64,000 nt of DNA from Pagrus major (lineage: Eukaryota > Chordata > Actinopteri > Spariformes > Sparidae), in NCBI RefSeq assembly GCF_040436345.1, contig NC_133215.1, positions 36,425,806-36,489,805 of the forward strand, in the 5' to 3' direction. Below the pieces are notes generated by a model, which was not told the DNA's origin, did not search any database, and saw nothing but the letters and a program-made list of their open reading frames with translations. This document shows, in pieces, positions 7,640-39,400 of this stretch. Numbering within the stretch: the stretch's first letter is position 1; the number at the start of each line of letters is the position of its first letter. The translations under genes were made by a program, and so were the position numbers.

Positions 7640-8484
7640 TGTATGTATGGTATGGATTCTTTTTTTCACCGCAGTGAAAAAGCAACGTATCCCCGTGGGA
7701 TGGCGATTAAAATTTGACATAATTACATAGGTTTTTGTAACATATACTAGCATAATCTACTTATTGCCTGTTATGTGCAATAAGAGTAATTTTGAGGCCT
7801 TTTTCTCAATGCAATGAATGTGTATTGGGAGCTGGACCACAATTGTGAAGCACAGGAGCAGCTTATGAAGACGATCAGCAATATTTGGACTTAGGTCATG
7901 GCCATTAAACTTCGTAACTATTTCTTGCAAATGAAACAAATGTAAAAATCATTTTAGAATACATTCAATTCGGGCAATACATACTGTGCGTGAGAAACTT
8001 GTCAGATCATTTCAAACTGTCTGTTCACTTGCTTTTGGATACACAGAGTTTGGTCAGTTCCCAATGTGCACTTCTTCACCGGCCACTTATTAGGTACACC
8101 TGTGCAATCTAATGGAGTCCAGTCCAACAGCTCTGCCATACATTCTACTTTATGAAGCTTTTACATTTTCAGTTTTTGTTGACATTGTCAGAAAGGTGAT
8201 AATTATACTTTATGTTTATTATTGAGGTTGTGGTGCTGGTGTACTGCTCAGCACCTCAGACAGCTCATCGTTCACATCACAGATCCACGTTAAGAGGGCC
8301 GTATGCAGGGTTTAAGAAATACCGAGGTCCAAACCTAAATTTGGTTCCACATGGTGTTTGACAAAACTAGGGATAACCCCGGATAATAAAAAAAAAAAAC
8401 CCTTAAATGTTGATTTCTGGTGAAATTTGTGGAAACATAAATTAAGACTGAATATACTACATACTGTACATTATTATTGTACTA
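7640..8484. other. Mostly unassigned; one dispersed repeat at 8083-8290
   Basis: From 8083 the sequence GGCCACTTATTAGGTACACC and the following about 200 bp look like a dispersed fish repeat often seen in intergenic DNA. The rest is AT-rich with an A-run at 8389-8399. No gene is seen. Confidence 0.4.
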
Positions 8485-9330
8485 CCGTATTTTCCGGACT
8501 ATAAGTTGCACTTTTTTTCATAGTTTGGCTGGTCCTGCGACTTATAGTCTGGTGCGACTTATATATCAAAATATATATAATTTAACATATTTTTAAATGT
8601 TAATTCATACTGACTAACATGAACCAAGGAGTAAACATTACCGTCTACAGCCGCGAGAGGGCGCTCTAGGCTTGTGACAACTATATGCTGCTCCTGTACC
8701 ACTGAAAAAATTAACTGAAACATTAACTTAAAGACAACTTAGAAAGATTGAATACAAACAAAATGCCCCCGAAAAGAAAATCCTATTCTGCAGATTACAA
8801 ACTGCGGGTAGTAAAATATGCAGCCGAAAACTGTAATCGAGCAGCAGAAAGAAAGTTTGCTGAGTCTGACGACAGCCCTGCAGAAGAGGAGACGGCGCTT
8901 CATCTTCCTCCGGAGTTGGCGGAGTTGTTCAGAAGCGACAACGAGGATGAAGAATTCAATGGATTCAGTGATGTGGAATGAGATCGAGAGCTTGGTGAAC
9001 TTGCTTACCGGTAACTTGCTTGTTGGACTCGCTGGCTTGTTATGTTAATTTAGCCTATTCAGCCTCCCAGGTATGTTCTTTATGCTATTGTATAGTTGAA
9101 TAACTGTTAATGTGTTACGTTAACATACCGGACACCTATTAAGCCTGTTGTTCTGTGTGCTATTGTGTAGTTGAATAACTTGCCTTTCCAGATTAAATGT
9201 CTGTTCTTGGTCTTGGATTTTGTGAAATAAATTTCTAAATAAACTTATATATGTTTTTTTCCTCTTCATGACGCATTTTTTGACTGATGCGACTTATACT
9301 CCGGAGCGACTTATAGTCCAGAAAATACGT
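8485..9330 (+). mobile_element. pogo-like (Tc1/mariner superfamily) element, internally deleted
   Basis: The element starts CCGTATTTTCCGGACTATAA and ends in the inverted counterpart TTATAGTCCAGAAAATACGT, flanked by TA at 8483-8484 and 9331-9332. Length is 846 bp. It encodes only the two ends of a transposase joined together (8763-8981). The DDE core is deleted, so it can move only with help from an autonomous relative. Confidence 0.8.
8763..8981 (+). CDS. Mini-protein of pogo-like element: Brinker/CENPB-type N-terminus fused to acidic tail
   Basis: A 72-residue open frame from an ATG at 8763. Residues 1-28 (MPPKRKSYSADYKLRVVKYA and following) match the start of the Brinker-type helix-turn-helix of pogo-like transposases. 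The second half (ELAELFRSDNEDEEFNGFSD) matches the acidic C-terminal tail seen in the same transposases. The several hundred residues of DDE domain between them are missing, and the join, near residue 36, stays in frame. It might bind DNA only weakly because the HTH is cut short. Whether it is expressed is unknown. Confidence 0.55.
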   Translation: MPPKRKSYSADYKLRVVKYAAENCNRAAERKFAESDDSPAEEETALHLPPELAELFRSDNEDEEFNGFSDVE

Positions 9331-11115: not shown

Positions 11116-11133
11116 TTGTTGGTGTAACACGAA

Positions 11134-14100
11134 ATGGTGAAGGTCTTTCCATGCCGCTTCTGTAGCCTTTCGTTAACATCAGTAAAATGTTATGTAGACC
11201 ACCAAATACTACATAGACATGAAGCTAATGCCCAATTTCCATGTTGTGTTACTGACTGCAAATGTGTGTTTGTCAAATACAGTGCTTTTAAAACGCATTG
11301 TTATAGACACCATAACAACCCATCTGTGTCAGAATTGGACATTATGCAAGGACCATATACATGTGAGATCATAAGTTGTCAAAAACAGTGCACAGATCTC
11401 AAAGACCTTCTTGCACATCTCAGGTCACATCTTTCCAAAAGTGAGTTGGTAAATTGTCCATTTGCTAAATGTAGCAAAACATTTAAAGTAAGGTCTTCAT
11501 TTACTTCCCATATATCCAGGATCCACAAACATGCAACAGCAGGGCAAGTATCTGCAACATGTTCTGTAGAGTTGGTGAGTACTGAGCCAGCATCTGATGT
11601 GATGGAAAGTGGTACAGCTGAAAATGTCCCTGAATCTGTGGACATGCCAGATGATATTGATTTGAGAGCCTTGTACACACAAAATCTCTGTATGTTTTAC
11701 ATGAAACTGCAGGCAAAACACTTCATTCTTTCATCCACTATACAGATGATTGTTGAAGAGATAAATGACTTACATGATATTTGCAGTCAGCACACAAAAA
11801 AGCAATTCAAAGAGGTACTTAAAGCCAGAACAAACCTCTCTGACTCTGATGTTGATGAAGCTTTAAGTAGTTTGACAGATTTGCATTCTTCATGCATTCT
11901 CCTGGACAGATCACTGTCTCACCTGGAGAAGCCTGGAAGCACTGTGAGGATCATGTTCTTTGATTTCTCCAGTGCTTTCAACACCATACAGCCTGCACTT
12001 TTGGGGGACAAGCTGGAGCTCACGGGGGTGGACCAACACCTCACGACCTGGATCCTCGATTACCTCACCAACCGGCCACAGTATGTGAGGACTCGGGACT
12101 GTGTGTCGGACACAGTCGTCTGCAGTACGGGGGCCCCACAGGGAACAGTCCTGGCCCCTTTCCTGTTCACCCTGTACACTGCTGATTTCTCCCACCAAAC
12201 ACCCCACAGCAATCTACAGAAGTTCTCTGACGACTCTGCTATCGTCGGCCTCATCAGGGACGGGGACGACAGAGCCTACAGAGGACTTATTCAGGACTTT
12301 GTGGACTGGTGCCAGTGGAACCACCTCCAGCTCAACGCCGGGAAGACCAAAGAGCTGGTGGTGGATTTCCGCAGGCGCAAACAACCCTGCACACAGGTGA
12401 ACATCCAGGGAACGGACATTGAGATGGTGACGTTTTACAAGTACCTGGGAGTTCACCTGAACAATAAACTGGACTGGACTGATCACACTGCAGCAACATA
12501 CATGAAAGGTCAGAGCAGACTCCATCTGCTGAGGAAGCTCAGGTCCTTTGGGGTGCAGGGGGCACTCCTGACAACTTTCTATGACTCTGTGGTGGGATCA
12601 GCCATTTTCTATGGAGTAGTCTGCTGGAGCAGCAGCATCTCGGCAGCAGATAGGAAGAGACTTGATAAACTTATCAAGAAGGCCAGCTCCATCCTGGGAT
12701 GCCCTCTTGACCCAGTGCAGGTGGTGGGAGAGAGCAGGATGATGGACAAGCTGTCATCGCTGCTGGTGAAGGAGTCCCACCCCCTGCAGGTCACTATCAC
12801 CGCACTGGTCAGCTCCTTCAGCGACAGGTTGATACACCCCAAGTGTGTGAAGGAGAGGTATCGCAGGTCCTTCCTTCCTGCTGCTGTTAGACTGTACAAC
12901 CAGCACTGCTCCCAGTAGACCTCACATGTGCACTGTGCAATACAAAACTCTACACATATCCACACACTTTCTGGTTTGCACTAATTGGACAATTTTTAAT
13001 ACCCATATTTATTATTTATTGTTTGTAAATAACAATACTAAACTGTTTATACTTACACTGTTCATAAATACTATGTCATATTGTAAATACCAAGTTCATA
13101 TTGTAAATACTATGTATATACGAGTTAATTCTATTTCTTATCTCTTATCTCTTATTATATTGTTTATTTTTTACTTTTTATTATTGTTTAAGTGTGATAC
13201 TGTCCTTTGGCTGTTGTGACTAAGGAATTTCCCCATTTGCGGGACAAATAAAGGAATTCTGATTCTGATTCTGATTCATGCAGTACTCCTCTCTCTACAG
13301 AATATACCAGGAAGCAGGTTTTCCTCAAAAACTTCAACTATGTTCACCCACAACCTATTCATCTAGGGACGGATGACAACAGAAGTGACAGGTATGTACA
13401 GTACATCCCTCTCAAAGAAACACTGAAAGCTATGCTAAAAGATCCTGTCGTTTGGCAAGAATGTGGGAAGACTCAAAATGTCCCTCCTCCTGGGGTGTTG
13501 ATTGATGTGTGTGATGGATCAGTGTTCAAGACAAATGCTCTGTGTATGCAGCCAGGTAAAAATGTAAAGCTTATTTTATACCAGGATGCTTTAGAGGTAG
13601 TCAACCCTCTTGGCTCAGCAAAGAAAAAGCACAAGATAGTGGGGGCGTACTTCACACTTGCCAACTTTGAGCCATTCTATCGGTCAAGTGTTGATCAGCT
13701 GCAGCTCTTACTTTTGTGCACAGAGTGAGATTTCAAATACTTAGGACATGAGAGAGTGTTTTCAAAAATGTTCTCAGAGAGAGAGCTAGAGGATAATGGG
13801 CTTGTCACTTCTTCAGGTCATACTGTACGAGCAACAGTCTTGTGCATTGTTGGTGACAATTTGGGATCCCACTGCATTGGAGGTGATGCTGAAAATTTCA
13901 GTACCTCCTCTCACTGTTGTAGGTAATGCTTGGTACCCAGACAGGACATGGACAAAGTGAGTGTCAAGTTTCCAGTGAGAACTGTTGAGAGTTACAAAGA
14001 GGCAGTGCAGCTACTACAAGACAGTGAGACAACTGTAAATGGAGTAAAGTTTGACTCACTTTTCAATGGTCTTCAGTATTTTCATGTGTGTCAGCCAGGC

Positions 14101-15130
14101 CTTCCACCGTGCACAGGCCATGACATATTTGAAGGAGTAGTTGTCTATGACCTATCCATTTACATTCAGTACTTTGTGAAGGTAAAGAAATGGATGACTT
14201 ACCAGCAGCTCAACCGGCAGATCAAACAGTTCAAGTACCTGGGTTCTGATGCTAGTTCTGTTCCTTCGGAAGTCAGTGAACGTGGCATTAAGGTTGGTGG
14301 GCAGGCAACTGAGAATTGGTGTTTGCTGAGACTTCTTCCCATCATTACTGGGGACAGAATCAAAGACACCCAGGACCAGGTATGGCAGCTGAGTAGCTGT
14401 TGAGTTAGTCTGTGCGCCCAAGATATCTGCTGGCCAAGTCAGTTTCCTTCAGGTCCACATACAAGAATATCTTGAAACAAGGAAGCATCTCTTTCCCTCT
14501 GAAAAACTTAAACCAAAGCATCACTACCTCCTCCACTACCCATCTCTGATCATGAGGCTTGGCCCACTCATTCGCTTGTGGACAATGAGGTTTGAGAGCA
14601 AGCATTCGTACTTTAAACAATGTGTGAGGAGGACACACAACTTTAAAAATGGTTGTAAATCTCTTGCAAACAACCACCAGCTACTGCAGTCCTACATGAA
14701 CTCCAGCTCCTTCTTTCCTCCAGCATTGCAAGTGAAGGATTCCTCCCCTTACCATGCTGAGTTGTACAGCAGTAAGGTACGCAATGCTGCTGAGGAGAGC
14801 TTGGTCACACCTGACTTTATATCCATAGAAGTGCGCTTTCAGGGAACTCTCTATAGAAAGGGCTCCTTTCTGTGCCTTAAGAATGATGAATCTGTGGAAT
14901 TTGGACAACTTGAGCTTATACGGATGAAAGAAAACAAAAATGTGTATTTTCTTGCGACACCACACTCATCATCTTACATGCCAGAGTATGGGCTTCATAA
15001 AGTTGGCGAATCAGCAAGGGATATGCTTTGCATCAATGCTGATCAGTGTCTTGATTTTTATCCACTGGCTGCATACAGTCTGCTTGCAATGAAAGTAATA
15101 TCCCTGAAGCATAGTGTTTTGGATCTGTAA
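11134..15130 (+). pseudogene. C2H2 zinc-finger / transposase-like gene, interrupted by a LINE
   Basis: From the ATG at 11134 the frame encodes several C2H2-type fingers in the first 140 residues (FPCRFCSLSL, CCVTDCKCVF, CPFAKCSKTF with paired His), then a helical region. At 11896 an L2-type LINE intervenes. The same frame resumes at 13283 and shows GDNLGSHCIGGDAENF, CQPGLPPCTGHDIFEGVVV and LIRLWTMRFESKHSYFKQ. These fit a large multi-copy fish and invertebrate family that I know only as uncharacterised, transposase-like proteins. Defects: TGA at 13726, TAA at 13924 and an indel near 14395-14400. From there the frame is open to the stop at 15128-15130. The SAM gene starts 43 bp later on the same strand. 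Function is unknown; a mobile-element origin is inference. Confidence 0.75.
11897..13274 (+). mobile_element. L2-type LINE, 5'-truncated, inserted in C2H2 gene
   Basis: Insertion with an 8-bp target duplication (TTCATGCA at 11889-11896 and 13275-13282). The LINE part encodes the second half of ORF2: RT motifs FFDFSSAFNTI, GAPQGTVLAPFLFTLYT and FSDDSAIVG (the usual F/YADD box), then the C-terminus ending RYRRSFLPAAVRLYNQHC at the stop 12916-12918. A 3' UTR follows, then ACAAATAAAGGAATTC and a tail of TGATTCT repeats. Its endonuclease half is absent. The frame is open throughout and joined in frame to the host zinc-finger exon, so a 594-codon chimeric frame exists, but this is a by-product of insertion. 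Confidence 0.9.
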
Positions 15131-23871: not shown

Positions 23872-23877
23872 CAAGGG
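23872..23877. other. Target-site duplication of element B, left copy
   Basis: CAAGGG directly before GGTCCGTGTATC; the matching copy is at 36428-36433 directly after the right end. Both lie inside LINE ORF2. Confidence 0.85.
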
Positions 23878-24067
23878 GGTCCGTGTATCTTTTGGTCATT
23901 GGAATTTCCCTTCATGAATGGGAATTAAAAAACAAAAAACGACTGGTTTATTTGATTTTCGTTTTGAAACACAAAAACAAAAATTGAATTACGCTGAATT
24001 TTTCTTTTATTTTCATTTTCTATTTCATATATCAAAAATAAATTCACTAGTCAGCAGGAACGAAAAA
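23878..24067 (+). repeat. TIR of element B, left, outer part
   Basis: First 190 bp of B's left terminal inverted repeat, from GGTCCGTGTATCTTTTGG to CAGCAGGAACGAAAAA. The last six bases double as the target duplication of element A. Inverted counterpart: 36238-36427. Confidence 0.9.
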
Positions 24068-24123
24068 GGTCCGTGTACCTTCCGTTCATTCTATTTCCAA
24101 TTTTGAAACGAAAATCGAAAAAC
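24068..24123 (+). repeat. TIR of element A, left
   Basis: Starts GGTCCGTGTACCTTCCGTTC. It matches the right TIR over 56 bp with one difference at position 50; weaker similarity continues inward. Confidence 0.9.
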
Positions 24124-24436
24124 GAAAAAAACAGGCATTTTTCTTTTTTCAAAATATGTAGCAGGTTTTAAAAGACCAACCAGGAGCCGTTTTCTATTAA
24201 AATACAGCCATAAAATTGGATTTTGTGTTGTTTTCCTATTATGGATTTTTATATTCCCAGATAAACACGAAGAATCCAATCTATGTTAATCCAAAATGCA
24301 AAAATGTGGGGATTTTTTAACATTAAGCAGTATACCCGGACCCCGGAAGCAGTATTTTAGCCTTTTTCCCACGATTAGCGCGTCTTTAGCAAAACAGTAG
24401 CAGATTCGGTTGGCAGGAGTTTGAAGCCTGGGCGAG

Positions 24437-27021
24437 ATGGTGTCTCTCGAGCCCTATGGAAATTTAATAAGAGAAATGATAGCTCAAAATCTCTCGCACG
24501 CGGACATTTCCACGAATTTATTACAGATAGGTGTGCAGAAAGGATGTTCTGAAATGAGTGTCAGGAGATTTTGTGCACATCACAACATTTCCAGGAGGGG
24601 ACATGTATCGGACACACAATTGGAGGTTACGATCAGCAGGGCAATAAATCAGGTAGGTTATTTTGGTTTTCTTTGACAAGTCACATTTACATTTACTTGA
24701 TTAGGTTTTTGGATAAATTGTACGAGTAGTTTTACATCATCTCCATACTTTTTACTTACTTAGTATACTTGTGAAGAAGAATGTACTCTTACTCCTCTAC
24801 ATTCGGCTACACTGAGCTAGTCGCTTTTCTTTTTTACCCATTCAGTATTCTAGGCAGCATTATCATCATTACACCCCCATCTGTTTTATATTTCATATTT
24901 CATGTTGACTAGGTTACATTTCACGGCTTATGTTGATTCATCAGACAGGGTCAACATATGGCCGAAAGATGATGACCGGGTACCTGTCTGCAATCGGAGT
25001 GGTTGCTGGTGAACGCCGGGTGGGGAAGATTTTGAGAGCAACTCATCGTCCCTATCACGAAATGCGCAAACGTGTAAGTATCTTTTGCGAGCCTTTAATG
25101 TTGTGGTATATGGTATAATGTATTTTACTAGCTGACTTTTACTTGCTTTTTCCCCCAAAGGGCGCACGTAACCTTAACCCCGTCCCCTACAGTGCAGAAT
25201 ACATGGGACACAAAGTCCACATCGACCAGAACGAAAAATTGGTCATGTTCGGAGTAACACACGTTCTCGCAATAGATGGGTACAGCAGTAAGGTCGTTGC
25301 CCACGCAACCATGCCTGTCAAAAATAACCTCACAATCTATGAAGATGTTTACAGGTTAGTACAGTGCTTCTCAACCTTTTTTTTTTTTGCTTTAATACCC
25401 CCTTCCTCTGATTTCTGATTCCAAGTATCCCCTAGGGCAAAAACACATTTTTCAAAACAGTTTTTTGTGACTTTTTCTGTCATTTTTGCAACTTTGTTTT
25501 CTTTTTTGCAATTTTTTGGACCCCCCCACACCTGAAGCCTACAGATGACTCTAGATGTGATTTATTAGCTGGAAAATACAATAGGGACATAGCCTGAAGC
25601 CTCACACAGTTCCACTACAAATTTGAGAAAAATAAATCACATCTAGAGTCATCTGCAGGCTTCTGTTGCACAATTTATTTAGGTATGTCATCTCATGTAA
25701 TTGTGGACACAATGCACTCATAGATTGCAATATTCTTGATCTATCCTATATTGCAGACTTAACATTTGATGAGTCAACATTTGATTGAGTCATGTTTCAC
25801 TATTTTATAGATCAGCAGTTCTTGAATATGGGATGTGGGACCAGGTCAGGGTGGACCATGGCCGAGAATTTTACTTGTCCCTCTACATGCAGGAGATGCT
25901 GTCTAACCACAGACACAACTTGCAAAGGCAACCATATCTCCAAACACAGTCAACAAAGGTGAGGTAACGGGTTCCTTAATGTACAAAATGTGCCTTGTTT
26001 ATGCCTGAAATGAGACTATGCTTTGGAGATGTTACTCAGATGTTACGTACTGAACAGCAAAATAAACTCTAGCAGTGATTGTTATTGGAATATATAGCTA
26101 ACAGAAAATATCACTTAACCTTAACCAGATGCACCCTTGAGTAGGGATGCTTGTAGGTACCCCTACACATCAATGGTCCTCCTCCTTGGACACCCAATCA
26201 GCCCTCTTCATATTGTCTGTTAATTTTTTACATCTAATATAATCCTATTTCCTCTCACCATGTTGATTTTGCAGACTAAATTGAGTGGGGATTTTTTTTT
26301 TTTTTTTTTTTAAATTGAGTGTTGGTTTTACATTATCCACCTAAAAAAAAATCTACCCTTTTCTTTTCTACAGAATCATACGGTAGAGCGAATGTGGGTA
26401 GAGATCAACAACCGGGTAAATTACCCATTGAAGGAGGCCCTCATGCAGCTGCAGGATCAGGAAGTCCTCAACATGGATGACAACATCACCAGATACTGTA
26501 CATCTAACCTTACTGCTGAGCTGTGCAAGATTGGCATAACAAGAGCTGTACTTGCATGGAATGCACATAGAATCCCAGGTGAGTTACATAAAAAGAAAAA
26601 AAAAACATGTAACACATTACAGTCCAGTCCTTTTTTGTGAAGTTTTTCTTTATTTTAAAGTTGACTGTGAATTCAAACAATAGCTGCCATTGTGTGACCT
26701 ATGCTTTGCTTCACAGGCAAAGGAACACCCAATCATTTGGCAGCAGGAGGATGTCCAAAAAAACTAGATGATGATTTGTTGCCACATGCCTCCCAAGCAG
26801 CAGACATGTACCAGCAGGATGTTGGCTCTTCACTTACTAGAGTCTCCTGTTTTGGAACTGACCCCTTCTCAAATGAGGAGGACAAAATATCAGCAGAACA
26901 ACGATTTGCTGAGGGGTACCCTGACATTTCAGTTTTATTAGACTATGTGGTAAACTATAATTTTGCACCTTTTCAGGATGCATTGCTGTATCTGATAAAC
27001 ATTACACAACAATATGCATGA
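24437..27021 (+). CDS. Element A transposase (rve-type DD38E), six exons, intact
   Basis: Exons 24437-24652, 24945-25073, 25161-25354, 25811-25958, 26374-26578 and 26717-27021, all GT-AG, joining to 1197 nt (398 residues) with no stop. Residues 1-60 form a helix-turn-helix ([20 protein letters not shown], then [11 protein letters not shown]). The rve/integrase-like core has Asp137 (HIDQNEK), Asp195 (VRVDHGREF) and Glu234 (NHTVERMW), with 57 and 38 residues between them. The C-terminal part ([19 protein letters not shown]) is specific to the family. It should cut and join element ends in the nucleus. An AATAAA lies 9 bp after the stop. Exons 2-6 have the same lengths as in the B transposase (129, 194, 148, 205, 305 nt), a strong sign of correct splicing and homology. 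Confidence 0.88.
25360..25680. repeat. Fold-back/hAT-like repeat in intron 3 of transposase A
   Basis: It opens with CAGTGCTTCTCAACC (25361), which looks like a hAT-type terminus. It contains a 33-bp inverted repeat (GAAGCCTACAGATGACTCTA near 25536 against TAGAGTCATCTGCAGGCTTC near 25643). It lies wholly inside the intron and should not change the protein. Confidence 0.5.
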
Positions 27022-27029
27022 AAATGTCA

Positions 27030-27035
27030 AATAAA
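27030..27035 (+). terminator. Polyadenylation signal of transposase A
   Basis: AATAAA nine bases past the stop codon of the last exon, in the 301-bp gap between the two convergent genes. Confidence 0.6.
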
Positions 27036-27322
27036 AACAAGTTGGTTCTGGATATACTGTATATTTTGTTACTTTCATTGAATTGCAACTAAAATCAAAC
27101 ACAATCAACAATACCAATGTTAAACATTGAACTATGTTCTCCACCAAGTGAACATATTTTTCTAAAGTGCAACATGAAATACTAAAAATATTCTGTATCC
27201 TCTACAGCTGTTGAACAAGTGCAAAATTCCAACTGACTTTGAACAAGGCAATTAGCCAGATGTACTGTAACAGAGGTAATCAGGCTTAAATCACAGAATG
27301 TGATACAATCACACTTAAGGGG

Positions 27323-29122
27323 TTAATCCATCTTAATTACACCACCCAGTATGGAGAGAACATTGTCAAGACTGGTCAGCCTGTGTGCATTGAAAGAGAA
27401 CTCATCTGCCCTGCATTTGAGGCACTGGTTGGATGTCAGCATCCACTGGTCAACGCAGCTTTTGCAGCCAACAAAGCTTTTGCAGCATACGGCAATCACA
27501 GGTTCTTCCATTAGTCCTGTTTGATGAAGAAAATAAAAAGGACAATACACATGCAAGATTAGAGTTCATTATATTATTTTCTCTTTATCTACATATTACA
27601 TATGTTTAAAAGCTTGGCAAGGGACTGTTTAACTTTAACATGCAAAAGTGAATTAATGTTTGATTCACTTGGACATTCAATTTGATCCTGCTTAAAGGTA
27701 GACTTTAATATAGACCAATCAACAAATTATGTTACAGACCTTTGCACACAATACAACCAAAGGCCTCCTTCATGTGTGTTATCATGGTGTTGGTCAGAAC
27801 CAGCATAGCGCCGCTGGTGCTGCTGGCATGTGCTGACAGGTCCTTCATTACTGTGGTGACTTCACTCAGTCCTTGAGCAGCCAAGACCACTTCTTCTATT
27901 TTATCATGGACCTCCTGAAGACTTGTGGAGTCCACATCTTTAAGACTACAAGGAGGGACAAAAACGACAACACAAACATTATACAATATTCACCAGTTGT
28001 GTTCAGATAACCTTTTTTCTAAGAGAGATGGTATTAAAAACAGAATGAAAGACAAATATTAATAGGCAGTAACTCAAATTTTTTACCTCAGTTTCTTTCC
28101 CTTTGTTCCATGCTGGAACTCATGGAAGATCTGCTCTGGGACAGCAAGAAACTTTTTTGCATTTTGCTTCCAATACTTGGAGCCTAGCAAGTGAGGAAGA
28201 CAAATCATTTAGCAGATATAATGTAAACACATTTGCAGCTAAACAGAATACTTTGTGGGTCAAAAAATTATGAGACAAAGAGAGCACAGTATTGAAGTAG
28301 ATGGGGCAGGTAGTTGATCAAACAAACTATTATTATGTAATTACAAATTTTTTCAATTAGTACCTCTTGTCCCTTCGGAGTCCACGATCTCATTTCCCTG
28401 GGCATCAGTCAGGATGAGCGGGTCATCACTCTGCAGGGCATCATGTATTTTTGCAAGGATACCTGTGGTTGTTGCTTCAAACTCAAACAGTCTGAGTACA
28501 ACCATACGAGTAGGCTTCAGTTTCCCCTGGCTGAGCTCAGCAATGAAAACAGACCTAGAAAGTGGGAGTGGTTTACATCAAGTCGAATCAATTAATTCCA
28601 TCTCAAACACATAGTCTACATTACAAAAACAAATACAATTATGTTGATTTATTCATATGTAGCTTGCTAGTCAATTGTAGGGGCTGTGAACTGATGAAAC
28701 TAGGTTGTACCTTTGGAAGGTGTTACTCATGCTTGCTCGGGGGGGAGCAGGAGCTATGGCCTGAGCAGGTGACCCTAGAGCAGCAGTGGGCTGTGCTGTA
28801 CGGTGGAACTGGAAACGGTTCTGGCCTGACAATGGATGACTCTGCTCGGCAACTGGTAGACCAATATCATCCCCATGAACCTCATAGTGGCCACGAGGTC
28901 TTAGGTCCAAGCAGCTGAAATGTCCAGCCGATCCCGGGAATATCGCCACATTGTCATCATCAGTTATGTACAGGCTAGGAGCATATACCTTTGAAAGAAA
29001 AGCATCAGCTAAATGTTAATTACAGATATGTACAGCCTACCAAACATTTATTTTTATTGCAATGCTATTATTATAATATTCTATTGCTCACCCCCTCAGC
29101 TCGCACTCACACACACCCCAGT

Positions 29123-29161
<39 letters not shown>

Positions 29162-29164
29162 AGT

Positions 29165-29203
<39 letters not shown>

Positions 29204-29204
29204 A

Positions 29205-29289
<85 letters not shown>

Positions 29290-29292
29290 AGT

Positions 29293-29325
<33 letters not shown>

Positions 29326-29392
29326 AGTTCTCTCTCACCCACACACACACACCAGTTCTCACACACCCACACACACACACCAGTTCTCACAA

Positions 29393-29432
<40 letters not shown>

Positions 29433-29662
29433 TTTTAAATAGGCTTATAGCTTTTAAATTTCAATTATCTTACATTGAAGAGCCTTAATGAGTCGGCTAG
29501 CCATGTGCCATGCATAGCATCCTTTGGTCTTAGCATGTTCTCCAAGCAAACGAAAAAAGTGTTACCTACCTGAACTATTCTGGCGATTTTATCTCCCATC
29601 ATGTCGGTCTCCTTAAGCGTGAGCCTTTTGTTTCCTTTAAAAAGGATAAAACTCGACTCCAT
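27323..29662 (-). CDS. Element A accessory protein, RING-like, six exons, intact
   Basis: Minus-strand exons 29662-29570, 28988-28711, 28554-28364, 28183-28087, 27945-27740 and 27516-27323, all GT-AG, join to 1059 nt (352 residues) with no stop. The N-terminal half has [17 protein letters not shown] and [10 protein letters not shown]. The middle has [12 protein letters not shown] and [19 protein letters not shown] helical stretch follows (about 220-280). The C-terminus has eight cysteines, 284, 287, 299, 300, 306, 309, 320 and 323, in a C-x2-C-x11-CC-x5-C-x2-C-x10-C-x2-C pattern, RING-like but without the zinc-binding His. Role unknown: a ubiquitin ligase-like or protein-binding partner of the transposase is a guess. 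The B element encodes a homologue with the same eight cysteines. Confidence 0.82.
29094..29431. repeat. (CT)n(CA)n compound microsatellite in intron 1 of accessory gene A
   Basis: Alternating runs of CT and CA separated by CAGTTCTC units, several times repeated. It lies in the first intron (28989-29569) of the minus-strand accessory gene. Open frames across it are artefacts. Confidence 0.95.
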
Positions 29663-29713
29663 TCTTACCGCACCGGCACCACGCTGAAGTTAATTAAACT
29701 AGGCTACCGCACG

Positions 29714-29727
29714 AAGGTACACGGACC
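29714..29727 (-). promoter_or_regulatory. Internal copy of the A terminal sequence
   Basis: AAGGTACACGGACC here is the exact complement of the outermost 14 bp of A's TIR (GGTCCGTGTACCTT), 296 bp inside the right end and 52 bp upstream of the accessory gene's ATG. A second partial copy (ACGGACC) follows at once. It may be an internal transposase-binding site that lets the transposase regulate the accessory promoter, or a relic of an earlier end. Confidence 0.5.
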
Positions 29728-29967
29728 ACGGACCGCACTGCTTCCTGCAACGCGGATCAATCCGCGCGATAATTTATTTTATTTCCGGGCTACAGGCTAC
29801 AACGCTTAAAAATTGAAAATTGAAAATGGATATACAGAAATTCGAGGCCTTTCGCGAAAACTACATTTTAGGTCAGAAAATGCAATGGTTTTTTTTACAC
29901 CGGGTCATTAAATTGGTTGTCCTATTTTTGTTTAAGAAATGGCAATAGAAAAAATGGCCCTAAATTT

Positions 29968-30023
29968 GTTTTTTGATTTTCGTTTCAAAATTGGAAATAG
30001 AATGAACGGAAGGTACACGGACC
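29968..30023 (-). repeat. TIR of element A, right
   Basis: Inverted counterpart of 24068-24123, ending GGTACACGGACC, followed by the duplication GAAAAA. Confidence 0.9.
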
Positions 30024-30029
30024 GAAAAA

Positions 30030-30067
30030 ACCAACCAAAAACAACCATTTATTCATATTCTCGCACC
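30030..30067 (+). repeat. TIR of element B, left, inner part
   Basis: The last 38 bp of B's left TIR (ACCAACCAAAAACAACCATT... to CTCGCACC), cut off from the outer 190 bp by insertion of A. It matches 36200-36237 in inverted orientation without a difference. Confidence 0.85.
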
Positions 30068-30129
30068 AGAGAATTCTCGGAAGCCAGGCAAGAGCGCATG
30101 GTCCAGGACTGTCTGAGACAAGGAGAGTA

Positions 30130-33100
30130 ATGACGACGGAGACTTCGAAGAGGATGGACCAGTATGTTGTGTTCAGAAAGAGCAAGAGAGTTTGTCTTCG
30201 CGATGAAGACATGACTGCTGATAAACTTAGTCGGATCTTTCAGGTAAAAAAATAAATAAATAAATAAATAAAATCGGGTTACCTATAGATCTGCATGCTA
30301 CTGTAGCCTACTGTGCGCCATTCTAGCTTTAATTTTTTCTTCAAATTTTGAATTAATGTAATTTGGACAGCGTTTGGAGAAGTATCCTCACAGTAACATT
30401 AGATTGAATAATTATGTTTTGAAAACGCTAACGTTAATAACACTAACATTAGCTGTTATTTGACTTGTGTATTTCTTAGGTCTCAAGTCACAGTCTGTAC
30501 TTAACAGACGACACAAATGTGGCTATATTTCCCGGAGAATCATCCGGCGTCTTCAGCTCTATCGACCTTAGTCCAAGGAGTCACTATGAAGTCCACGGCG
30601 AAGACGATGTCGCCTCAGCATCAAACACAACGGGGCAACGCTTTGCCTTCACACGAACACCTACCAGTACAGTTACTAGTGGTTCACAGCGGGTTGCCTC
30701 AGCCCTCCCCAGAGCCACTGTTGCCAAAGCATTTCAGAGGTAACTTTAAATTAGAAATACTTTATTTAATCCCCGAGGGGAAATTTAAAAATGTCACAGA
30801 GCAGCAGCAAGACAATACAGACAACGACACAGATCACAAACACTGAGTAAAAATACATGTAAGACATAAAAACACATAGTGTATTAAAACACAGAATAAA
30901 AGAAATTTAAAGAAAATTAAAGTCACATATTCAATGACTATGAAACCAGAAAAAGATATACAATAGATTTTATTGCACACAAGCTAGTTGAGATCTGATT
31001 ATGGGGTCATATAGCCTATGGTGTGGATGTTCTGAGTTGTTATGAATGGCCTTTAACATCCTCAATGTGGGGGAGATGCACACTGAAGATATCAAAGGCC
31101 ATTCTTAACAACTCAGAACATCCACTCCATAACACCTGTAGCTACTGGTGGATGGCTCCTCTCTCTTCAATGCCAGATAAATAAATACAGAAGATCCTTA
31201 TACCAACAGCCATCAAGCTTTTAAATGCTTTTAATACTTCTTCTAATATATGAGCTGCCTGACAAATTGTTCTCAACAATTATTCTCATTCTTATATCCA
31301 CTCCATTAGCCATTATTTGTCTCATTTGTAGACTCTAGTTCTTGTTGATATTCAAAGTGGTGGAAAGTAACTAAATAATTGTATTTAAGTACTGAGTATT
31401 TTAATTGGCTTCTATACTTCTACCACTACATTTCAAAGGAAATATTGAACTTGTTACTATTACTATCAGTTCCTACATAAGACCATTAAGCATTGCTAGG
31501 TGTCATGGTTTGTGTCCGTGCGTCTCCTGTTTGTCTTGTGTGATGTTATTCCCTGTCTTGTCATGTCTGGCGTGTTCCTTTTGTGGGAGTTTCATGTTTT
31601 ATTTTGAAGTCGTGTGTCTTCCCTCTGTGTTGAAGTTTCCCCGCCTCTTGTGATTATTTAATGTGTCTCACCTGTTTTGATTACCCCTCGTTTTCTCCTG
31701 TGTGTTTAAACCCTGTGTTTTCCCTTTGTCTTCATTGTATCGTCTGTTGACTTGTCATTTGTCTCTGCTTGGCCCTCCTGTGCTGTTCCTCCAGTGAGAA
31801 AAAAAATCTGATATTCTTCCAGGTCAGTGTTCCTTGCTGAGGTGGTTAGTGGGAAGCTGAATCCTAGCAGAATGGTGGTGGTGAGGTTTTTAGAGTGCGA
31901 GGCTTCTCTTCAGGGGATTGCCACAAAAGTACAGGATGCCATTGGAAGTGAGGAGCCCTTAATATTGACTGATGCGCAGGGCAACGCCATTGTGGAGTCA
32001 GAGGGAACAACAGGTGGGTAACATAAATTATTGTTGTGTTTCTCTGTATTGAGTCTATGCTTTTTTGATTACAAATGAGTGAACCACTTCAGTTGTAATG
32101 GTTTTTCCTGGTTTCCGCTCCTGCTCCAAGGGTCGCCTTACTGGAAACAAAACGCAAGAAAGATTCTTGCTGTTCCAGAAAAGGACTTCAGAGAGCTGCA
32201 GGGCACCAAAAGAAGGAGAATGAGGTAAGGTCATCTCATTTACACTGAAATGTATGTGTTCCTTTTTTTGTTGTTGTTTTGTTTTTTCTGTTAGACTTAT
32301 CATTACATGACTTTTCAGACAATTTTGCCATTGCTGCTTCTGTATACAACATACATAGGATTATTTGGCATTCCCACATACTAATACTCTGTCTGCCGCT
32401 AAGGAACCAACTCCCCCCTTAAAGAATGAAAGCCTGTCGACCTCATATTTCCATATTCAGGAATGGAATTTTTCACCCCTTACCAATTTTACTGATTTGT
32501 GTCTTTTTCCTAATAAATACATTTCCTAAATTGCAGCCCTGACCTGGCAAAGCTACATTCATAAATCCAATACTTATGATTATTATTTTTTAGGCTCTTT
32601 TCTAAACTTTCAAACCAAAGGTTAAGCTTCCACCCCACCACCACCAATCCTGTTCACCACATCCAGTACATAATCTAGCCTGTGTGTTTTGTTTTATCCC
32701 TGTGTAGCAGCCGAAAAGATGAAGATGTTGGAGGCATTACAGAGGTCACAGAGAAAATTGAAGACCTCGTACTTGCATCTCAGAGTCTCCCGGATGTCAC
32801 TTCAGCAATCAGGGAGCTCACCAGTCTGGCTGCAGCTCAAAGAGTGACCCTGACTCGTTCCCAGCTGCAAACCATTAAGCAGGGGTTCTCCTGTGTTATT
32901 TGCTTGAGTAAGTATCCAATGGATCTATTTTATATGGTGTGTGCCACAATGTAAGATTTACAAATAAACATTCATTTTTTACATTATCTAACCAACGTCA
33001 GCTGTATGCCAGCCACTTCATCTTTTGTAATATATCAGACATTTTTTATAATCATCAAAGTTGTGTAAAAATATAACGCTCATCCAATACACCAAGAATA

Positions 33101-33353
33101 TTTGACTGGGGAAACACTTGCAGAAAATGACTAGTTTTTCTCATTTTGTTTTTTAGAGTTCATCGGGGAGCCGGTGTTCACACAGTGTTGCCAAAGCATC
33201 ATTGGCTGCAAGACTTGCCTGGAACAGTGGCAGGAGACCTCAGACAGTTGCGCAAAATGCAGGGGAAATGCTGAAGGCAACAGCATGTTTGAAGTTAATG
33301 GCCTGTCTGAGGTATTTTCTGTTCTCAGGTCACTTTTTGAAGAAGATGAGTAA
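30130..33353 (+). CDS. Element B accessory protein, RING-like, six exons, intact
   Basis: Exons 30130-30243, 30480-30739, 31823-32013, 32131-32224, 32708-32907 and 33157-33353, all GT-AG, join to 1056 nt (351 residues) with no stop. It is homologous to the A accessory protein throughout: [58 protein letters not shown]. The eight C-terminal cysteines are at 282, 285, 297, 298, 304, 307, 318 and 321 with the same spacing and again no His, so the modified RING-like fold is under constraint. I chose the ATG at 30130; an in-frame ATG eight codons later aligns better with the A start. Intron 2 (1083 bp) has collected LINE and other repeats. Its TIR promoter is now separated from it by element A. 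Confidence 0.82.
30745..31250. repeat. Two LINE fragments head to head in intron 2 of accessory gene B
   Basis: At 30745-30790 a LINE 3' tail lies on the minus strand (the complement reads CCCCTCGGGGATTAAATAAA). From about 31140 a C-terminal ORF2 fragment of the same type lies on the plus strand, with AGATCCTTATACCAACAGCC. Between them is a near-perfect palindrome: TGGATGTTCTGAGTTGTTA at 31024 and its complement ending at 31126. This is the structure expected of an inverted LINE insertion (twin priming), or of a later rearrangement. Confidence 0.5.
31340..31800 (+). repeat. Dispersed fish repeats, one LTR-like
   Basis: The part from 31360 (AAAGTGGTGGAAAGTAACTA) looks like a common teleost repeat. 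The part from 31500 starts TGTCATGGTTTGTGTCCG and has TTTAAACCCTGTG, as in some fish LTRs, but I cannot find its other end. Both lie within intron 2 of accessory gene B. Confidence 0.35.
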
Positions 33354-33475
33354 TTTACTCAGAAACAGGCAGATATTTGAGTTGTTTTAATTATGAAAGA
33401 TTGAGTCAGAGTTCACTGCTACCAGTTGTTCTACTTGTTTACATTCTTTGAGTTCTAATACAGCAAATGGTGTTT

Positions 33476-36166
33476 TTACACATTGCGCCGAGTTGTGTTT
33501 ATAAGAAAGAGAAGTGCTTCTTTGTATGGTGTGAAATCATTGTTGACTGCTTGAGAGAACAATTCAGAAATGTCAGAATATGTGTCTGCAAACTGATTCT
33601 CAGCCAGTACTTTGTCTTGTTCTGTGGAAAATGGATCTACTCCAAAGGTAGATTGTGGTGTCAGTGAGGACCCCAGCTGTTGTCTGTAGAGGTCTGCTGC
33701 TTCAACTGAATGAGGCAACAGCTCCTGTGGGATTTTTTTGGGACACCCACTGCCAGCCAAGTTATTTGGTGTACCTTTACCTGTAAAATAAAGAACATAC
33801 TGTTGACCTTGAGACTTATGTGTGCCTGTTGTAATTATTTTAATGTTTGCAATACTGATTTATTTCACCTGGAATTCGATGAGCATTCCAAGACTCCACC
33901 ACTCTTGTAAGACCAATCTGGCACAGCTGACCAGTCAGGCAGGACACACAGTATCTGACAAGGCTGTCATCCATGTCCAGTTCTTCCTGATCTACCAACT
34001 GCAGAAGGGCTGTCTTCAGGGGGTAGTTGACACGATTATTGACCTCAGGCCAGATTTGTTCAACTGTGTGATTCTGAATGTGAGGCAAAAACTTGTTATT
34101 AATTTATTCCAATGGTTAAATTAAAAATATGTAGACCTTCCAGAAAAGTGTTCTGCTTATCGTAGAAGTTGGAAAGCATAGCAATTCTGAAGAAAATTAA
34201 AAAGATAGCATGATGCTGAAACAAACATAATAGTATCTAAATACCTAACAACACAAAATATTAACAATAAATAGCTTCAATGGGCATGCAGTGTGTGTTG
34301 GTGAAGCAACCATAGAAACTACTGAACTGTACCCTTGTGGATGGAGTTTGTAGGTAAGGTCTTCTCTCCTGATCATAGCGATGAGATGACAGCAGCTCCT
34401 GCATGAAGAGTGTCAAATAGAATTCCTTTCCATGATCCACGCGCACCTGGTCCCACATCCCATTAGCAACTACTGCAGGCCTATTGGATGAAAAACTTGA
34501 TTTTAATTTGTGCAAAGCTTTTCAAATGTAGCCATTCCAAATCAGTTATTCTCTGTAAAATATAATGATTCAGTCATAACAAAGTAAATGTTAAGCAGTC
34601 AGCATTTTGTCACACTTGTGTACATGTAGGATACTATTTCAATGCCAGTTTAAATGAAGAGTCTGTCATTTATATGGGATTAGTATATGCAGCCTTTCCT
34701 TTCAAGTAGGACGTCCAAAATCACATATCATATAGTGTCATATCACAATCTTGATACCATATTGATATATTGGCCAGCAACCACTGTCTTGCATAAATGA
34801 CAGAATACTGCTTTAAGTGTCCACAAATTACAGGCTATTACCTGAAAACATCTTCATAGATGACTAGGTTGTTTTTTATGGGCATTGTGGAATGACCAAC
34901 AACCTTTTTGCTGAAGCCATCAATGGCTACAACATGTGTGACCCCATACATCGCTAACTTTTCATTCTGGTCCATATGAATCTTCTGTCCCATGTAGTCT
35001 GCTTGGTATGGTATGGGGTTGAGATTGCGGGCACCCTAAAAGAAGACACGAAAATAATGTAACAATTCCATAGAAACATTTCCTACAACGCCATCCTCAA
35101 CGACATAGTCCTATACTCTAAATGGGCTGATAACTAGCCCCTCCCACTTCTCACTTTCTTAAAAAAAAGGCTACTGGTCATAAAACAGTAAACACTGTTA
35201 CAAGGAAGAAAAACAACATCGGCGACATAAAAGGACGAGGAGGAAAATAATAGGCTACATTTGTTACCTACAGTAGCAACCATAATATTCTTTTGTAGCA
35301 ACTTAACTCTAAACGCTACACTAACGGAAGACAACATATTTCTATTTTCAAAATAAAAGCATTTGTTATTGTAACCTACTACGGCCACAGAGACGCGCCC
35401 CTTAACCAGCTGATCCCTGGTTTACACCAACGTCTCTGTTTACACAAATACACACATCATAACACCTAGGCTATAATAATCCGCTGATCCATGAATTGAT
35501 TTCTCAAGTTGAAAACAAATGTATGTGGTTGTCATGGAAGTGACCACGGCGCTACCTGAATCATCTTGAATTTGCCAAGTGTAAAACCTACCTGGCGTCT
35601 TGCTTCATGGTAAGGTTGGTGCATAGTTCTGAGCACTGATCCTATATGTTTCTCAGCAGCATGAACCCCTTTAATGGCGAGATACCCCTTCATCATTCTT
35701 CTGCCAAAAGTTGGTCCCGTCTAGAAAAAAACAAACATCCAAAATCATGCCGATATGTTTGGTCATTGGGAGAATACGTAAAATGGGGGCGGCATGGGAT
35801 TTGCAAGTGTTTTACGGAATCTGTTTACTGTTGTGTAGATCAGGCTATAGTGACGATAAAAAATGTCAATGTGGGGACAAGAATTCACTTCTTTTCCCAC
35901 GCACACACATATCAAAGAAGAAAAGATCAGATAGTCTTTCATACCTCGGCTATGGCTTTTGCCACCTCCAACTCCAGATGTTCCTCGGGCAATCCCATCA
36001 AATTTACGCCGTTTTCAGCACAGAATCTTCTCACATTTCGAGCTGAAAATCCTCTCCTGCCCCCGCTTTCTACTGAAATGCGCGCAGAGATTTCGGATGA
36101 TGACAGGCCTTGTTTTGCCATGTCTAAAATCATTTCTGAGTACGGCTCCAAAGACATTTTGCTCAT
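33476..36166 (-). CDS. Element B transposase (rve-type DD38E), six exons, intact
   Basis: Minus-strand exons 36166-35945, 35720-35592, 35035-34842, 34480-34333, 34073-33869 and 33780-33476, all GT-AG, join to 1203 nt (400 residues) with no stop. An N-terminal helix-turn-helix ([31 protein letters not shown]) precedes the rve core: Asp139 (HMDQNEK), Asp197 (VRVDHGKEF), Glu236 (NHTVEQIW). It ends [20 protein letters not shown] and a short basic tail. In the 68 residues of exon 5, 48 are identical to transposase A by my count. The start codon is 34 bp inside the right TIR, which probably holds its promoter. Its stop lies 122 bp from that of the convergent accessory gene. Confidence 0.88.
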
Positions 36167-36199
36167 TCACGCTTTGTTGTAGCCTAAATGACAGCTTCC

Positions 36200-36427
36200 G
36201 GTGCGAGAATATGAATAAATGGTTGTTTTTGGTTGGTTTTTTCGTTCCTGCTGACTAGTGAATTTATTTTTGATATATGAAATAGAAAATGAAAATAAAA
36301 GAAAAATTCAGCGTAATTCAATTTTTGTTTTTGTGTTTCAAAACGAAAATCAAATAAACCAGTCGTTTTTTGTTTTTTAATTCCCATTCATGAAGGGAAA
36401 TTCCAATGACCAAAAGATACACGGACC
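36200..36427 (-). repeat. TIR of element B, right
   Basis: 228 bp, ending GATACACGGACC, followed by the target duplication CAAGGG at 36428-36433. I saw no mismatch to the left TIR once element A is removed, which points to recent transposition or recent gene conversion. Confidence 0.9.
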
Positions 36428-39400
36428 CAAGGGCAACCACTCTTTGGTGTTTATTACTTTGGATATTCTGGACACGGGCCCCGAGCAGGCATGTTTTAGG
36501 GGAAAGCTGAAAGTCAACTTTGAGGATCCCTGACAGGAAATGTGCCACCTCTCTCCATAGGGACTCAATGACTGGGCAGTGCCATAGCATATGGAGGAGC
36601 GATCCCTCTTCTCCACATCCATGCCAACATTGAGCCGATAGGCTCTGGTCCATCTTTTTTAGTCTAACCGGAGTTAGATATGCCCTATGCATTATCTTCA
36701 TTTGTATTACTCTATATCTTACGCATTTGCTTATATTAATTGAGTTCCTCCACAAGCCATCCCATTCAGAAGATGACAAATTAATTCCCAGATCTTGCTG
36801 CCACTGCAATTGGGTCGAGGTATTGCAATTGGGGGAGGAAAGGGATAAAAGCCTATAAAGTTTGGATACCACACCTCTGCTATGGGCGATAGCCTCCAAC
36901 TTCTCGTCCAGCTCCTTGTGGCAACCGATGGCGCTGCCCGGCATTGATAATCTGTTTAAGATGGCTTGTTGTAGGTATATTAAGAAAGAGCTGCTACTCA
37001 GTCCAAAATTTGCCTTGAGTACAGTTAGCGGAATCATTGAACCATCCCTCAGCACTTGGCTAAGCCTATGTATATTCAGACTCTGCCATGCTTTGTCAGA
37101 TAGTGGATTCCCACCTGTTGATAATAAGTGATTGTTCCATAGGGGACACGAGGGGAGGGAAATTCCACTGGTGCCTAAATTACTATGTATCTTTTTCACA
37201 ATGTCGCATGTAAATTTAATGATCGAATTCTCTAATTTAGATGGAAATTTGGGGCAATACCATAGTGAAGATAAAGAAATGAACCTGTTGTTTTCCCTAA
37301 ATAACTCCCTCTCAAGCCAATCCCAGGTACCTCTGGTTGAGATATCATTGTAGCCCCAAGAGAGTGGAAATCTCACATTGTATGACAGATAATACAGAAA
37401 TACATCCGGGACACCTAACCCACCTTGGGATCTCAGTTTGGAGAGCTTTTTACGGTTTATTTTTGGTTTCTTATTTTTCCATAAAAAGCTGGTGAATAAA
37501 GCCTCAATCTCTTTAAACCAGCCCTGTGGAAATTGCAATGGGAGGGAAGCAATGATGTAAGTTAATCTCGGTAGAATATTAGTCTTTATTACCTCTGCTC
37601 TGCCTCATAGTGACAGTGGGAGAGTCGTCCATCTTTTGATGTCTTCACGAATCGTTCTTAGAAGGGGAGGACCATTAAGATCAAAAATTTTAGAAACTGG
37701 CGATCTGATGGTTATTCCTAAATACCTCATTCCTTCTGGTCTCCACACAAAAGGGGTGGTCTTCAGGTCCGCTGAGAAGGTTTTAGAGTTCAAGGGAATT
37801 GCTTCACTCTTGCTCCAATTAATTTGGTATCCTGAAAACAGGCCAAACGATTTAATTAATTCCAAAACTTTCGGTATTGAATGAATTGGGTTTGATAAGG
37901 TCAATAAGATGTCGTCTGCATACATATTTAACTTAAAATCGTGGCCACCTATCCTTATGCCAGTTATATTGGCATGCTCACGAATGGCACATGCTAGTGG
38001 TTCCAGAGCTAGGACAAATATTAAAGGGCTTAAGGGGCAGCCCTGTCTTGTGCCACGGTAGAGATTAAAAGGCTTAGAAATCAGACCATTAACCTTGACT
38101 GCGGCAACAGGGCTGTTATACAGGGCCTTGAACCACTGCACAGCAGATGGTCCAAAACCATATCTTGACAATATCTGGAACAAATAAGGCCATTCTAATC
38201 TATCGAAAGCTTTTTCCGCGTCCAGTGATATCCCTACCGCTGGACACTGGAGAGAGCTAGCTTTTAACATGACTTGAAGCAATCTTCTCATGTTGTTGGC
38301 TGGGAGTCTGCCTGGTATAAATCCTACCTGGTCTATATGAACCAGGGAGGTGATTTTCTCTAGACGGAGAGCCAGAACTTTCGCGAATACTTTGTAGTCA
38401 TTATCCAATAGACTTAAAGGGCGAAAATTTCCCATGTCTAAATGATCTTTTCCTGATTTGGGAAGAAGTGAAATTGTAGCTGTGCGCATTGTCGCTGGCA
38501 TTGACTTATTTTCAATAATATTATTATAAAGTTGAGTCAGGACTGGAGACAGGCTGTTCTGGAACTGTTTATAAAATTCTATGGTGTATCCATCTCCCCC
38601 TGGGGATTTGCCATTGGCAAGCTTTTTAATTGCGGTTAGAATCTCTGCGTCCCGCACTGGTGCCTCCAGATCATCTCTATCCAATGCACTCAATTTAGGG
38701 AGGGGAGTATTCATAAGAAATTCTGCCACCTTGTGCTCCTGAGATTGACATTCAGCCTGATATAATTTGGAGTAGTACTCTTTAAAAGCGGAGCTTATTA
38801 AAGCCTGTTCTGAAATAATATTCCCACTGCTGTCCCTTATTGCTGGAATTGACTGTTTGTTCTCCTGCTGCTTAAGCTGATAGGCGAGCATTTTACCTGC
38901 TTTGTCGCCACTCTCAAAATGTCTTCTACGCAGACGGTATAGAGCAAAGGCAGTCTCCTCATGGAGTATTGACTACAGGTCAGCCCTCGCCATGAGAAGA
39001 TCCTTCTTCATGACAGGATTTGTTGTGTCAACCATGTGTTGAGACTCTAAAGTCTTAATTTTCGCTAATAGGTCGTTTTTCTTTTCATTTCTTAGCCTAC
39101 GTTTGGCAGTTGAATAAGAAATTATCCAGCCTCTGCACGTTACTTTGAAGGCTTCCCAGACAGTTTGCATGGATGAGACTGAATTCATATTTATTCTAAA
39201 GAATTCACTGGTTCTTTGTGTTATCAGGGAAACAAATTTTGCATCCTGCAACAAGGAGTTATTGAATCTCCATTGCTTTGTTCTGTGTTGGGTATCAAAT
39301 ATAGGACTGAAGGTCATTGATAAAGGTGCATGGTCTGAGATAAGTATACTATGAATTGCTGTATCAATGACATTCATGGTATGATTTGAAGAAATGAGGA

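Follow-up and report, generated by a model that had tools for sequence, protein, structure and literature searches.

The question raised by this locus is what kind of mobile element has inserted here twice, and what part is played by the second gene which both insertions carry besides a transposase. In the current work, the window denotes the whole stretch of 64,000 nucleotides that was analyzed (C1:36425806-36489805), and searches were performed against the host genome of Pagrus major (785,883,843 bases on 25 contigs). The first-pass annotation had described two related two-gene DNA transposons, one of them nested in the TIR of the other, and this structure was recovered base for base. At the ends proposed for the outer element (23878/36427) the sequence reads GGTCCGTGTATC...GATACACGGACC, flanked on both sides by CAAGGG, and at those proposed for the inner element (24068/30023) it reads GGTCCGTGTACC...GGTACACGGACC, flanked on both sides by GAAAAA (Table 1).

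Table 1. Features of the two elements and their relatives in the host genome (window positions, except where a contig is named).
Feature	Position	Strand	Basis or details
Outer element with the inner one nested inside	23878..36427		ends, duplications, near-identical copies at other loci
Outer target duplication CAAGGG, left	23872..23877	+	sequence read; empty-site match
Outer target duplication CAAGGG, right	36428..36433	+	sequence read; empty-site match
Outer left TIR, first 190 bp	23878..24067	+	resumes at 30030-30067 past the inner element, total 228 bp; sequence, repeat comparison
Outer right TIR, 228 bp	36200..36427	-	sequence, repeat comparison
Outer RING-like gene, 351 aa	30130..33353	+	6 exons: 30130-30243, 30480-30739, 31823-32013, 32131-32224, 32708-32907, 33157-33353; by-eye model
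Outer transposase gene, 397 aa, D136 D194 E233	33476..36157	-	6 exons: 36157-35945, 35720-35592, 35035-34842, 34480-34333, 34073-33869, 33780-33476; by-eye model
Inner element, 5956 bp	24068..30023		ends, repeats, other genomic copies
Inner target duplication GAAAAA, left (final 6 bases of the outer left TIR ahead of the inner element)	24062..24067	+	sequence
Inner target duplication GAAAAA, right	30024..30029	+	sequence
Inner left TIR, 59 bp	24068..24126	+	97% complementary to 29965-30023; repeat comparison
Inner right TIR	29965..30023	-	repeat comparison
Inner transposase gene, 398 aa, D137 D195 E234	24437..27021	+	6 exons: 24437-24652, 24945-25073, 25161-25354, 25811-25958, 26374-26578, 26717-27021; by-eye model
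Inner RING-like gene, 352 aa	27323..29662	-	6 exons: 29662-29570, 28988-28711, 28554-28364, 28183-28087, 27945-27740, 27516-27323; by-eye model
Internal exact copy of the terminal motif (GGTCCGTGTACCTT)	29714..29727	-	motif search of window
Outer-family copy L009	C20		duplication CAAAAC
Outer-family copy L010	C18:9044973 (C18:9044850-9051670)		no duplication, nearly identical
Outer-family copy L011	C7		duplication ACCAAG
Outer-family copy L012	C18:3454546		duplication AATAAG
Older outer relative L013	C2:30092087		ACCGTG, right end altered
Inner-family copy L026	C24		duplication ATATTT
Inner-family copy L027/L028	C13:18097650-18117500		duplication CTTGAA, ends in inverted layout
Inner-family copy L029	C22		left end not found; outside the duplication count

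Removal of the inner element together with one GAAAAA, which had been predicted to restore the left TIR of the outer element, yields 228 bp identical to the right TIR as counted on the printed sequence strings, and the two outer arms are 100% complementary over 191 nt up to the inner insertion. The outer element itself is 6588 bp in length (12550 minus 5956 minus one 6-bp duplication). The empty site expected for the inner element, in which GAAAAA occurs once, is present in the outer right TIR. The empty site expected for the outer element was represented by 240 nt of joined flanks containing one CAAGGG, which match three LINE copies of the host genome over their full length (C24:987231, C24:1023725 and C8:27299945, at 100, 98 and 98% identity, respectively); these loci are known from the match table alone, so that only for the 100% row is a single CAAGGG certain. 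The remaining three of the six rows of this search correspond to the two halves at the window locus and to a 90-nt piece on C3. Across the joined flanks an open frame of 464 aa runs on along the minus strand, and the frame interrupted by the outer element was taken by eye to be LINE ORF2. Elsewhere in the window, the region 11128-15127 contains frames matching reverse transcriptase (RVT_1, E 2.4e-16) and, weakly, DUF4218 (0.038), being the remains of other mobile elements.

Searches of the host genome with the outer and inner ends returned 21 and seven matches, respectively, and the copies found share the predicted ends in both families. A 6-bp target duplication flanks eight of the nine two-ended copies (the window pair included), a count which takes in L013, where ACCGTG lies 3 bases past the cut point of the recognised right end, as well as the inverted C13 copy, and which leaves out the end matches L014-L018, these being read for their ends. 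The termini are GG..CC at 17 of the 18 ends of these nine copies, the remaining end being altered. Each departure from this pattern, in L010 and in L013, concerns one copy only. The absence of a duplication from L010 is perhaps due to recombination between copies, while L027 and L028 are two parts of one inner-family element, located about 15 kb apart in inverted orientation with CTTGAA in common, a layout likely produced by a later inversion. One recognisable end each was found in L014, L015 and L016, and a doubtful end only in L017. L018 contains, at 8014-8952, about 0.94 kb of sequence bounded by a left and a right end, with the near-duplication CAGAAA/CAGAAT at its borders; a second candidate left end lies at 8754, and the sequence is possibly a non-autonomous derivative.

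Near-identical copies of the outer element are present on several chromosomes, the five young copies being 0.14-0.31% apart in substitutions (ten comparisons, with indels left uncounted), and the outer transposon seems to have moved recently. Both gene models of the window outer copy are free of stops, and all twelve exons are full-length and gap-free in L012. RING exon 2 contains a gap in L009 and L010, and in the former RING exon 5 is also incomplete at its end; in L011, transposase exon 5 and the beginning of RING exon 6 are cut. In the remaining copies, L026 retains all twelve exons with one gap, and exons are missing or cut in L013, L027/L028 and L029. In vertebrates, DNA transposons that have moved recently are uncommon, and it is the closeness of these five copies, combined with stop-free gene models in the window and a RING-like gene that also accompanies older relatives, which makes the outer family notable.

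Both elements had been proposed to carry the same convergent pair of genes, a DD38E transposase and a RING-like protein, and the by-eye spliced models of both elements support this. All introns are GT-AG, and the splice phase is equal between outer and inner element at all 10 internal boundaries, an agreement which is partly built in because the two elements were inspected together when the splice sites were chosen by eye. The transposases are 59% identical and share the catalytic spacing D(57)D(38)E, whereas the RING-like proteins are 48% identical. Within the introns, inverted repeats were noted in the outer RING gene (31017-31131, 53-nt arms, 9 nt between) and in the inner transposase gene (25529-25668, 38-nt arms, 64 nt between), and a long simple-repeat tract (29087-29446) occupies part of intron 1 of the inner RING gene.

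With regard to the nature of the transposase, the outer and inner proteins match Pfam rva_4 (PF24764) with 57.9 and 69 bits (E 1.5e-15 and 5.7e-19), both above the curated cut-off of 26 bits, and HTH_21 with E 0.046 and 0.0017, below its cut-off. The NCBIfam IS3 transposase model is matched weakly (13.1 bits and E 0.042 for the outer protein, the best of the two reaching E 6.1e-05), its cut-off of 160 bits being far from reached by either. No HHCC motif is present, with one and two cysteines, respectively, preceding the first catalytic residue, and a PDB search with the transposase profile returned two weak matches only, to a ribosomal and to a cohesion protein.

The first-pass annotation had pointed to the IS3EU superfamily, and the 6-bp duplications, the absence of HHCC and the IS3-like transposase speak for this placement, as does the position of the first catalytic D (136/137), which falls within the 100-300 residues expected of IS3EU. 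The termini do not: in the available portion of PMC10045372, complete IS3EU families always possess TA..TA termini, with duplications usually of 6 bp, against the GG..CC of the present elements, so that the IS3EU label is unsupported, and membership was dropped. GingerRoot, for which the same portion gives 6-bp duplications and termini that are mostly TA..TA and occasionally TG..CA, was likewise dropped, since its duplications fit and GG..CC does not. Were the TA..TA rule not universal, both elements could be ordinary IS3EU/GingerRoot members, a reading that would be compatible with the mechanism proposed below and that we consider a serious contender at somewhat less than even odds. IS3EU fragments in teleosts appear in a table within the available part of PMC4746887.

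A second family in the same genome bears on this alternative from both sides. An rva_4 family search of the host genome gave at least 154 matches, with none of 14 control genomes matched, and related elements are therefore common in this host. Among them, the family represented by L062 and L063 shares with our transposases the rva_4 core, interrupted frames and, by eye, an N-terminal helix-turn-helix and similar N-terminal layout, which agrees with common membership. It differs in being only 22-25% identical (tblastn), in having DD34E rather than DD38E spacing and in carrying no RING-gene cluster within 8 kb; one of its ends seems to start with TATG, judged where two copies stop matching and resting on that one end in two copies.

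As for the second gene, the label RING-like proved fair. No Pfam RING model is matched above its curated cut-off (best 21.4 bits versus 27.3), and among PDB chains the protein matches RING domains at E 1.2e-5 and weaker, PCGF5 being the top match (65 chains at E <=1, considering the best 60 of 65). Eight cysteines are invariant between the outer and inner proteins (C282, C285, C297, C298, C304, C307, C318 and C321), and the histidine usual as fourth ligand is absent as judged by eye, for which reason ubiquitin ligase activity is uncertain. A predicted fold of RING-gene exon 3 (two sequences) was discarded at a mean pLDDT of 60.5, and a pattern search for relatives in viral contigs matched 48 and 52 stretches, none of which was confirmed as related.

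Whether this gene belongs to the transposon or merely travels with it can be approached through its distribution. The genome holds at least 87 matches to the outer transposase and at least 72 to the outer RING-like protein; clustered at 4 kb per strand, the matches listed form 26 transposase and 23 RING clusters. Among these, a transposase cluster lies no more than 8 kb away from 16 of the 23 RING clusters, with convergent orientation in 15 cases and divergent orientation in one (C10); these are raw counts, and the 15 convergent pairs are not independent, because five belong to the young outer family and four to the inner family. Among the same listed matches, nine of the 26 transposase clusters stand without a RING cluster at this distance. 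Three of the nine belong to the other rva_4 family, L062 and L063 among them, one is a C13 half apparently displaced by inversion, and five are partial, two of these standing 12 kb apart on C18. Seven of the 23 RING clusters listed are unpaired at this distance; one (C17:4058809) is situated about 1 kb from an outer-type end, and the others are single matches (C1:37526661, C8:23737561, C16:26924256, C17:1378007, C21:2712173 and C21:3381608) which could be a host gene family or decayed copies.

These six single-exon matches could mark the host family from which the RING-like gene was captured once, to be carried since as a passenger without a role in transposition. We regard such a capture as improbable, considering that both elements and the older C2, C18 and C19 copies keep the gene in the same convergent place, even though silent sites between outer and inner element are saturated. 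The old C19 pair (L065) carries stops and looks, by eye, to be interrupted by Tc1-like and LINE-like insertions, and no ends were recognised for the C18:3264500 subfamily (L061) within the 7 kb examined. The RING-like partner accompanies the element across old subfamilies.

Substitution patterns likewise argue against a passenger, since the RING gene and the transposase have similar dN/dS values when compared with the C2 copy. Between the outer element and L013, dN is 0.078, dS 0.529 and dN/dS about 0.15 for the transposase (329 codons), and 0.119, 0.635 and about 0.19 for the RING gene (278 codons). Both ratios are pushed up by the decay of L013, which has one in-frame stop in its transposase. 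Comparison with L061, over 117 and 20 codons only, gave dN 0.13 with dS 1.6 and dN 0.042 with dS 0.36, while between the outer and inner elements the two genes have pS of 0.787 and 0.814 (saturated) and pN of 0.249 and 0.336. As read from these alignments, both genes have fewer amino-acid-changing than silent changes between subfamilies. No sign of selection was detected among the young outer copies, in which silent changes do not outnumber amino-acid changes: relative to the window copy, the four others have 2, 1, 0 and 0 silent and 3, 3, 3 and 8 amino-acid changes in the transposase, and 0, 0, 0 and 0 silent and 0, 2, 1 and 1 amino-acid changes in the RING gene. Selection is consequently seen only at longer distance.

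The explanation which we favor, with a probability of roughly 0.83, is that both elements are members of one eukaryotic DNA-transposon lineage with an IS3-like (rva_4) transposase and its own 5'-GGTCCGTGTAYC termini. The D136/D194/E233 core would mobilize DNA bounded by GGTCCGTG ends: the common end motif would be bound by the N-terminal helix-turn-helix and HTH_21-like regions, the catalytic core would cut the ends and join them to target DNA at positions staggered by 6 bases, and repair would turn this stagger into the target duplication. The outer element would have entered the LINE first, followed by the inner element into the TIR of the outer one. With less confidence, we propose that the RING-like protein benefits the element that encodes it; its most likely role would be that of an adaptor or ligase of the ubiquitin pathway, with the transposase, repair factors or silencing chromatin as its target.

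Bacterial IS3 elements move by a copy-out, paste-in route through a circle. The weak match of the transposase to the IS3 model would fit such a route in place of cut and paste, the termini differ from the TG..CA of IS3, and on balance we consider this route unlikely. The end motif GGTCCGTGTAYCTT has six matches in the window at <=2 mismatches, five of them exact, against 0.41 expected. The fifth exact match, absent from the first-pass annotation, is the internal copy listed in Table 1, the third exact occurrence of the inner end motif. It lies about 300 bp inside the inner right end, some 50 bp upstream of the start codon in the RING-gene model, and has a counterpart in L026, L028 and L029; it may offer the transposase an additional binding site or regulate the RING gene, or it may be an older end.

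A bolder reading goes further, proposing a separate vertebrate IS3-like lineage, perhaps a superfamily, that has GGTCCG termini, is still mobile in living fish and, through an obligate RING-like partner, directs the ubiquitin system of its host at the level of transposase turnover, repair choice or silencing; we hold this to be doubtful. A description of a transposase paired with a RING-like gene was not found among the open-licence papers of PubMed Central that were searched.

Compared with known systems, the elements resemble IS3EU and GingerRoot in their 6-bp duplications, their IS3-like DDE transposase without HHCC and their eukaryotic hosts, and they differ in ending GG..CC rather than TA..TA and in possessing a RING-like partner, which the available portion of PMC10045372 does not mention for IS3EU. 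Their mode of action appears to be that of IS3EU, to which the transposase is related through Pfam rva_4 and through a weak match to IS3, and we take them for an IS3EU-like lineage that has termini of its own and conserves a RING-like, putatively accessory gene. An IS3EU element encoding two proteins is the likely origin of the fungal Styx element (PMC10853768, in the part available), and accessory proteins are recorded for Kolobok lineages in the available part of PMC9587614, in the main text of which the term RING is absent. TET-bearing fungal IS3EU elements, according to the accessible part of PMC12730594, similarly have a second gene opposite the transposase, 6-bp duplications and repeats of >30 bp; their partner is an alpha-kinase, which speaks against simple IS3EU membership of the present elements, with a TET/JBP gene between and ends of the form TAYGG..CCRTA. 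If the RING-like partner does work through ubiquitin, it would exemplify, in compact form, how a transposon acts upon a pathway of its host, comparable with the transposon origin of RAG1-RAG2. In the accessible part of PMC4411706, Transib/RAG1-RAG2 is likewise a DDE transposon thought to have once been two-gene, with a RING domain in its lineage; it differs in belonging to another transposase family, in generating 5-bp duplications, in containing the RING inside the RAG1-like protein and in the head-to-head arrangement of the sea urchin genes.
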